Below, piece after piece: positions 38,230-38,352 of a stretch of 64,000 bases of DNA; positions within the stretch are counted from its first letter, which is position 1, and each line of letters begins with the position of its first letter. The notes under the pieces were generated by a model. The model did no database searches. It saw nothing but the letters and a program-made list of their open reading frames with translations, and was not told the DNA's origin. The DNA comes from Chromobacterium violaceum ATCC 12472. GTDB lineage: Bacteria; Pseudomonadota; Gammaproteobacteria; Burkholderiales; Chromobacteriaceae. Made by a program: the position numbers and the translations under genes. The stretch spans positions 3,977,752 through 4,041,751 of the forward strand of contig NC_005085.1 of NCBI RefSeq assembly GCF_000007705.1, written 5' to 3'.

Positions 38230-38283
38230 ATGAAAACCGCATCCGCATTCGCAATCCAGTTTTGGTGGTGGCGCCTCTCCTAG
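38230..38283 (+). CDS. trpS leader peptide (three consecutive Trp codons)
   Basis: An 18-codon frame, [17 protein letters not shown] then TAG, with TGG-TGG-TGG at 38263-38271. It sits about 130 bases before the trpS ATG and just ahead of a set of competing RNA stems (next entry). Three tandem Trp codons at the right distance before a terminator are the signature of a ribosome-mediated attenuator. The ribosome site is weak, and the frame is too short for standard gene prediction. Confidence 0.85.
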
Positions 38284-38352
38284 GCGGCACCGGCGCTTGC
38301 GCACGCACAAGAACCCGGAGGCTGCCGACAAGGCGCACCGGGTTTTGTTTTT
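38267..38352 (+). promoter_or_regulatory. Tryptophan attenuator controlling trpS
   Basis: Four segments are visible. Segment 1 (38267-38275, over the Trp codons) pairs with segment 2 (38283-38291) at eight of nine positions. Segment 2 (38283-38293) can instead pair with segment 3 (38315-38326) over ten base pairs including one G-U. Segment 3 (38312-38318, AACCCGG) pairs with segment 4 (38338-38344, CCGGGTT), giving a terminator with a T-rich tail to 38352. Ribosome stalling at the Trp codons would free segment 2, form 2:3 and prevent termination. Completion to the TAG at 38281-38283 would cover segment 2 and allow 3:4. The structure is read from sequence; the mechanism is by analogy with the E. 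coli trp leader. Confidence 0.8.

Follow-up and report, generated by a model that had tools for sequence, protein, structure and literature searches.

Predicted tryptophan attenuators, mostly of leaderless type, before genes for an auxiliary tryptophanyl-tRNA synthetase in Chromobacterium and other Proteobacteria

A short open reading frame (ORF) with three tandem Trp codons, followed by RNA segments that can pair in alternative ways, precedes a trpS gene of Chromobacterium violaceum ATCC 12472. Its sequence makes it very probable that this is a ribosome-mediated transcription attenuator, through which the charging state of tRNA-Trp would control an auxiliary tryptophanyl-tRNA synthetase (TrpRS II). 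The features are given below in positions of the window, i.e. the whole stretch of 64,000 nucleotides that was analysed.

38194..38199, + strand: -35 box TTGACG, from the sequence; TTGAC lies 36 or 37 nt 5' of the leader ATG in 58/58 family homologues (where there were several in-frame ATGs, preference was given to one having TTGAC 34-37 nt before it)
38218..38223, + strand: -10 box TTTGAT, 6 nt before the leader ATG, a consensus match; predicted transcription start at or next to 38230
38230..38283, + strand: leader peptide ORF of 17 residues (ATG 38230, TAG 38281-38283), from sequence and conservation; probably leaderless
38263..38271, + strand: three tandem Trp codons (TGGTGGTGG), from the sequence
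38267..38276, + strand: segment 1, 5' side of the 1:2 hairpin, from pairing count, alignment and folding
38282..38293, + strand: segment 2, pairing with segment 1 or, as antiterminator, with segment 3, from pairing count and alignment
38310..38326, + strand: segment 3, 3' side of the antiterminator; in the terminator, the 5' arm and part of the apical hairpin; from pairing count and alignment
38338..38346, + strand: segment 4, terminator 3' arm, from pairing count, alignment and folding
38343..38352, + strand: T-rich tail TTTTGTTTTT of the predicted intrinsic terminator, from the sequence
38399..38402, + strand: Shine-Dalgarno core GGAG of trpS2, 8 nt upstream of the start, from the sequence
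38411..39433, + strand: trpS2, auxiliary tryptophanyl-tRNA synthetase of TrpRS II type, 340 aa, from homology, structure match and alignment

A preliminary description of this DNA had taken the gene for plain trpS. Judged by sequence comparison, it is instead a second, auxiliary TrpRS of the TrpRS II type. The genome (one contig, 4.75 Mb) has two TrpRS loci, whose products are 40% identical by alignment. The best solved relatives of the trpS2 product are 1yi8 and 2a4m ('Tryptophanyl-tRNA synthetase II', E about 1e-125; the next is at 1e-69), which we take to be TrpRS II of Deinococcus. No ORF with adjacent Trp codons is found in the 400 nt upstream of the housekeeping trpS; a lone single-Trp ORF there reads as the tail of the upstream gene, and we rejected like control of that locus. 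Since the window gene is closest to TrpRS II and the other locus is without such an ORF, the attenuator precedes the auxiliary enzyme. Two TrpRS genes, one of them behind a sensor of uncharged tRNA-Trp, would fit a backup role for the second. The earlier idea that trpS is tuned by its own product, charged tRNA-Trp, is only half right because the housekeeping synthetase charges the same tRNA. In S. coelicolor, of two trpS genes, SCO3334 is the WblC-dependent one, according to the passages of PMC7157823 drawn on here.

All nine aligned type II proteins (9/9) have Gln at a site where the housekeeping enzyme has His. In Bacillus TrpRS, His43 is implicated in indolmycin sensitivity, and its replacement by Asn gave resistance in studies cited in the part of PMC4899734 used here. 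Mapped by motif, the Gln site would be the counterpart of His43; as to indolmycin resistance of the Chromobacterium enzyme, this is suggestive only. In one assembly (G044:C3:739823-741017) the match to the housekeeping trpS is split in two, one part containing a TAG, and TrpRS II is whole; this split may be an error, the assembly being 80% complete with 7% contamination.

The 17-residue leader and its Trp codons lie where they had been placed. By direct count, segments 1 and 2 (38267-38276 with 38282-38291) form nine pairs with one G.G mismatch, where eight of nine had been given. The ten pairs assigned to 2:3 were counted again; they fall into two blocks (38283-38288 and 38290-38293 with 38321-38326 and 38315-38318). 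The 3:4 hairpin (38310-38318 with 38338-38346) and the T-rich tail after it, ending at 38352, were rightly recognized, with a stem that has nine pairs and not seven. The Trp codons had been put inside segment 1: one lies wholly and one partly within it, and the third is just upstream. The stop codon is as close to segment 2 as described; it overlaps the first two bases of the segment instead of abutting it. A proposed folding check turned out well for the whole leader (z -2.19; 6/200 shuffles equally good), for the 3:4 region 38310-38360 (-21.7 kcal/mol, z -2.31; 4/200 equal) and for the 1:2 hairpin alone (-15.4, z -3.72; 0/200 equal), and not for segments 2-4 folded jointly, which are unremarkable (z -1.14; 27/200 equal). 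The output of a terminator scan, whose rule admits loops of 3-8 only, does not contain the 3:4 hairpin. A small ORF (39464-39739) lies 30 nt 3' of trpS2 on the same strand, so that co-transcription is possible; it weakly resembles chorismate mutase families (the best match, at E 1e-6, misses the cut-off).

The leader ORF lacks a Shine-Dalgarno sequence. When the 60 nt upstream of family leaders were scanned for promoters, the best match placed the -10 box 6-7 nt before the ATG in 57/58. The same spacing is found outside the family in 20/22 leaders of the order and class, in 5/12 of the plasmid collection and in 15/32 of the named genomes; shuffled sequences have it in 31 of 620. A Shine-Dalgarno core 4-16 nt upstream occurs in none of the 58 family leaders versus 51/58 trpS2 starts. 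Outside the family the figures are 5/66 leaders versus 21/66 trpS starts, a contrast that is weaker because only 21/66 trpS starts carry a core there. Promoter spacing and the missing Shine-Dalgarno together suggest that the leader ORF is most likely transcribed leaderless, the RNA 5' end being at or next to the AUG. The E. coli trpL leader has tandem regulatory codons and alternative hairpins, controls biosynthesis and has a ribosome-binding site before its ORF. The likeness to its geometry, pointed out earlier, is real for the tandem Trp codons and the alternative structures, but the target differs, and so does the start, which is probably of leaderless type and has no Shine-Dalgarno.

Among 61 genomes of the family searched, 58 hold a homologue of trpS2 at the threshold of E up to 1e-60, and all 58 have the leader ORF. 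It carries WWWR in 37, WWR in 20 and a single Trp in one (L060, MPSRSSLPSLNWRR). We counted as a WW leader any ATG ORF within the 240 nt upstream that is 7-22 codons long and contains adjacent Trp codons; 57/58 homologues have one, versus 0.05 expected from dinucleotide shuffles and 0/58 on the antisense strand. TGGCGC is invariant across the alignment of 54 distinct family leaders. Pairing is kept in 94.9% (1:2), 92.7% (2:3) and 86.0% (3:4) of cells, and controls with slid partners reach at most 63.9, 64.0 and 53.3%. The alignment check advised in the preliminary description thus bears out the conservation of Trp codons and pairings; the covariation that it also looked for is weak. For 1:2 it is no better than in column shuffles (500/500 as high), with no two-sided change. 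For 2:3 there are two two-sided changes, in one sequence each (shuffles reach the pairing in 19/500 and the covariation score in 16/500). The values for 3:4 are unremarkable (116/500 and 31/500). RNAalifold returns six 1:2 pairs from the family leaders and nothing else. One 2:3 pair is broken in 14/53 sequences and the outermost 3:4 pair in 33/54. Where several pairings and a reading frame share a stretch, little covariation can be expected; even so, the family alignment does not independently prove the structures. We therefore gave up covariation across the 54 leaders as proof and used recurrence of the design in distant groups instead.

Some leaders deviate. Single-Trp leaders in otherwise similar positions, noted by eye (L060 of G030, NWRR; L113 of G064, YKWRP; L088 of G413, DWRRS), are possibly weakened sensors. 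In genus g10 (L031-L036, L042, L045-L047, L050) segments 2 and 3 seem, by eye, to pair in a shifted register, CGGTTGC with GCAGCCG. In the window's genus L015, L018, L021, L022 and L025 keep the stem with CCAGCA in place of the U-run, and termination may there be lost or factor-dependent.

At E up to 1e-90 the gene is found in 60 of 399 genomes of the order (family members included) and, among 370 genomes of the class, in one besides the window's own. A WW leader lies upstream of 23/48 loci of the order and class outside the family, or 22/48 after dropping L090, which sits within an open frame of 319 codons. The plasmid collection gave 91 matching records. Fourteen chosen ones were opened, several of them chromosome-sized, and a WW leader is present in 12, namely two E. 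coli plasmids, Klebsiella, Vibrio, Photobacterium, Aeromonas, Roseibium, Methylocystis, Variovorax, two Burkholderia and a Deinococcus. The opened loci of Acinetobacter and Rhizobium have no WW leader. TrpRS II genes with WW leaders were seen in the Klebsiella record (L126), near IS26 and IS1-family transposase genes on one E. coli plasmid (L117) and near a Tn3-like transposase gene on the other (L127).

Among named genomes, where the best 80 of 581 loci were taken and single-Trp leaders would escape the strict rule, 33/80 have a WW leader, or 32/79 without the Chromobacterium record. The carriers include Massilia, Herbaspirillum, Burkholderia, Paraburkholderia, Aeromonas, Hafnia, Kluyvera, Moritella, Ruegeria, Bradyrhizobium and Mesorhizobium. 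Within the same best 80 of 581, loci of Acinetobacter, Legionella, Undibacterium, Cupriavidus, Pandoraea, Methylophilus, Duganella, Collimonas and Firmicutes are without a WW leader. Shuffling predicts at most 0.15 WW leaders per locus set. WW leaders thus occur, with differing nucleotide sequences, in one Deinococcus as well as in alpha-, beta- and gammaproteobacteria.

On a tree of 125 TrpRS II proteins (69 with and 56 without a WW leader) the leader label requires 12 changes; the mean of shuffled labels is 41.2 and 0/500 shuffles are as low. The well supported branches force six changes. Therefore the leader was largely inherited with the gene and was gained or lost several times. In 79 genomes (32 of the 61 in the family, 46 of the order and one of the class) we looked for the housekeeping enzyme as well; three of these have no TrpRS II. 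A WW leader is present in 45/57 genomes with two TrpRSs versus 6/19 with TrpRS II alone, by hand tally (Fisher p 0.0004, uncorrected for kinship). Exceptions occur in both directions: nine g49 genomes have two TrpRSs and no leader, and four g62 genomes have a leader and one TrpRS. A tie between the leader and the possession of a second TrpRS is suggestive only.

In the four genomes of the Undibacterium-type genus g114, this TrpRS is the only one and no Trp ORF precedes it; by eye, a promoter-like box and a terminator are kept. A leader that keeps its terminator and loses its Trp codons had been named beforehand as a case that would speak against attenuation. It is thus seen in relatives with TrpRS II alone, not in Chromobacterium, and it is possibly a step in losing the switch. 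In L078 (Undibacterium griseum), L082 and L084 (g114) a TTGACA box and a GCCGCC...GCGGC terminator stand before trpS with no Trp ORF.

How could such a leader work? From conservation and alternative pairings we infer the following course of events. RNA polymerase would start at or next to the leader AUG, and the leader would be translated from the 5' end without a Shine-Dalgarno. With charged Trp-tRNA plentiful, the ribosome would reach the stop codon and cover segment 2, and transcription would be halted near 38352 by the 3:4 hairpin and the U-tail. If charged Trp-tRNA is scarce, either for want of Trp or with the housekeeping TrpRS inhibited, the ribosome would stall at the tandem Trp codons. 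Segment 2 would then capture segment 3, no terminator would form and trpS2 would be transcribed.

This scheme was modelled on 124 leaders, each RNA being folded up to the terminator 3' arm in three states: ribosome on the Trp codons, ribosome on the stop codon, no ribosome. The folding assumes equilibrium and a ribosome whose edge lies 12 nt downstream. A terminator was found by rule in 113/124; the 11 others include five of the window's genus that lack the U-run. A ribosome on the Trp codons leaves at least half of the terminator 5' arm sequestered in 109/113 leaders (group means 0.71-0.74), and with the ribosome at the stop codon the group means are 0.29-0.35. The difference between these two positions is 0.3 or more in 82/113 leaders; in controls with shuffled spacers its mean is just 0.06-0.10. 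With no ribosome, the 5' arm is paired to 0.28-0.58 on average, and therefore basal termination is not clearly predicted. The window leader has a moderate contrast, with 0.70 at the Trp codons, 0.40 at the stop codon and 0.40 with no ribosome, and 2/20 spacer shuffles did equally well. Thus the leader has the short ORF with conserved tandem regulatory codons that marks trp leaders, and in silico its antiterminator and terminator are mutually exclusive and chosen by ribosome position.

Other readings of the same sequences deserve mention. The terminated 5' RNA or the leader peptide might act in trans, besides attenuating trpS2 or instead of it, as is reported for rnTrpL and peTrpL of Sinorhizobium meliloti. 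That small leaderless Trp leader mRNA is a precedent of the same build (PMC7298713, PMC10117765, in the parts used here), and 57/58 family leader peptides share a WWR or WWWR tail. However, the peptide before the Trp run differs between genera, whereas the Trp codons and the pairings are kept, and outside the family Arg after the Trp is retained in just 44/66 leaders. We consider a role in trans unlikely. One could also imagine that the terminator serves passively as a boundary, that the Trp ORF is a relic and that trpS2 is expressed constitutively at a low level. The g114 relatives, with box and terminator and no Trp ORF, and the five leaders of the window's genus without the U-run would agree with this. 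Yet WW leaders of differing sequence occur from alphaproteobacteria to a Deinococcus, and most of them rebuild the competition for the 5' arm, which makes a relic very improbable.

A different sensor of Trp or tRNA (T-box, TRAP site or riboswitch) might act here, but nothing in its favour came to light, and the window contains no Rfam match at or above a gathering score. At E up to 10, Rfam gives four weak minus-strand matches; DnaX leads with 20.4 bits versus gathering 35, and Trp leaders and T-boxes are not among them. Likewise 18 further loci, one with a leader, show no T-box. This is the least credible of the three, and hardly credible at all. Ribosome-mediated attenuation in cis remains our preferred reading.

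Control of this kind has precedents. Vecchione and Sello (2010) reportedly found the gene for an auxiliary, antibiotic-resistant TrpRS of Streptomyces coelicolor to be under ribosome-mediated transcription attenuation. The likeness is an attenuated second TrpRS gene beside a housekeeping one, as predicted for Chromobacterium; the difference is that Streptomyces belongs to Actinobacteria. Among Gram-negatives, pheST is a synthetase operon that senses Phe and encodes a housekeeping enzyme. Its attenuator is similar in serving a synthetase operon with tandem codons and alternative hairpins, but differs in the amino acid and in the status of the enzyme. PMC1262725 names this attenuator. The same paper, in the part consulted, predicts classical attenuators with tandem UGG and GGCC-type competing segments for trpS/trpS2 of Streptomyces; those are again in Actinobacteria, while ours are in Proteobacteria and a Deinococcus.

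In S. lividans TK24 (trpL2-trpS) a leader precedes trpS and is leaderless by start-site mapping, as is trpL1; it has one Trp (MMTRTCTQLWRAA), and the passages of PMC8079986 drawn on here report no U-rich stretch, whereas the Chromobacterium leader has three Trp codons and a T-tail. In Caulobacter crescentus, ribosome profiling detected a translated short ORF ahead of trpS on its mRNA, according to the section of PMC4117421 used here. Thus a short ORF precedes a proteobacterial trpS there too; that section names no peptide sequence, pairings or attenuation for it. The S. meliloti trpL/rnTrpL is also an attenuator whose RNA starts with the AUG of a Trp leader, but it controls trpE(G) and not a synthetase, as far as the excerpts of PMC7298713 and PMC10117765 go. 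The expectation that a Gram-negative trpS would have no such leader was therefore too strong, given the Streptomyces attenuators and the Caulobacter ORF.

Already in print are attenuators of auxiliary trpS and leaderless Trp leaders in Streptomyces, and a trpS leader ORF in Caulobacter. New are the extent in Proteobacteria, the conserved leaderless geometry there and a second target in the same genome. In the open-licence literature we found no report of a Trp leader for Chromobacterium. The results indicate that many Proteobacteria share the Trp-attenuator control of an auxiliary TrpRS that is described in Streptomyces, mostly with a leaderless start like that of S. lividans and S. meliloti. 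If it is leaderless, initiation on a nascent 5' AUG would form part of the switch. An attenuated trpS2 also bears on the question whether duplicated TrpRS genes persist as inducible protection against TrpRS inhibitors.

The second target came from pattern searches of the same genome, which gave a single further leader built in this way.

Contig C1, about 4711388-4712903, minus strand: second Trp leader (MMKQIISLQTQYGWWRG) and a transporter gene of the sodium:neurotransmitter symporter (SNF) family (L215 / L246), from pattern search

The transporter belongs to Pfam PF00209, and its best solved relative is 4us3, presumably MhsT, solved with Trp bound. Relatives at E up to 1e-100 occur in 37/61 family genomes, and 30 loci were opened. 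The leader is present in 21/22 loci with at least 65% identity (one has W-R-W), the exception being L267, which is shorter than the others, and in none of the eight opened paralogues of 53-59% identity. TTGAC lies 36-39 nt before the ATG of these leaders, and 20/21 have a terminator hairpin. In L246-L260 the arm is sequestered to 0.80-0.87 with the ribosome at the Trp codons and to 0-0.24 at the stop codon, values that come without a shuffled control; in L261, L262, L265 and L266 the contrast between ribosome positions is small or absent. In the open-licence literature, searched without aiming at the transporter, no description of a Trp leader upstream of an SNF-family gene came up.

Further copies were sought in the genome among seven pattern matches. 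Two are the leaders described, two are in-frame WW inside or antisense to longer ORFs, and three have no WW ORF by eye. We rejected like control of trpE, as 420 nt gave no WW ORF; W-R-W does occur in an ORF of 38 aa.

With a like device before a transporter gene in the same genome, the arrangement therefore looks like a small regulon. One signal, uncharged tRNA-Trp, would then govern both a backup synthetase and a likely importer of amino acids, in a genus that also uses Trp to make violacein. A broader proposal can be made only tentatively, and we give it somewhat less credence than its denial. Chromobacterium and its relatives may have a tRNA-Trp regulon built on leaderless leaders and consisting of TrpRS II and an MhsT-like transporter. 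The synthetase copy may be a self-contained cassette, found across Proteobacteria and on plasmids, which would restore charging if the housekeeping TrpRS is blocked, e.g. by indolmycin-like antibiotics.

Two minor observations concern the transporter element. Just upstream of it, on the same strand, is a gene for an amino acid permease (Pfam AA_permease). Genomes of genus g3 without TrpRS II still carry the transporter leader (L261, L263, L264).
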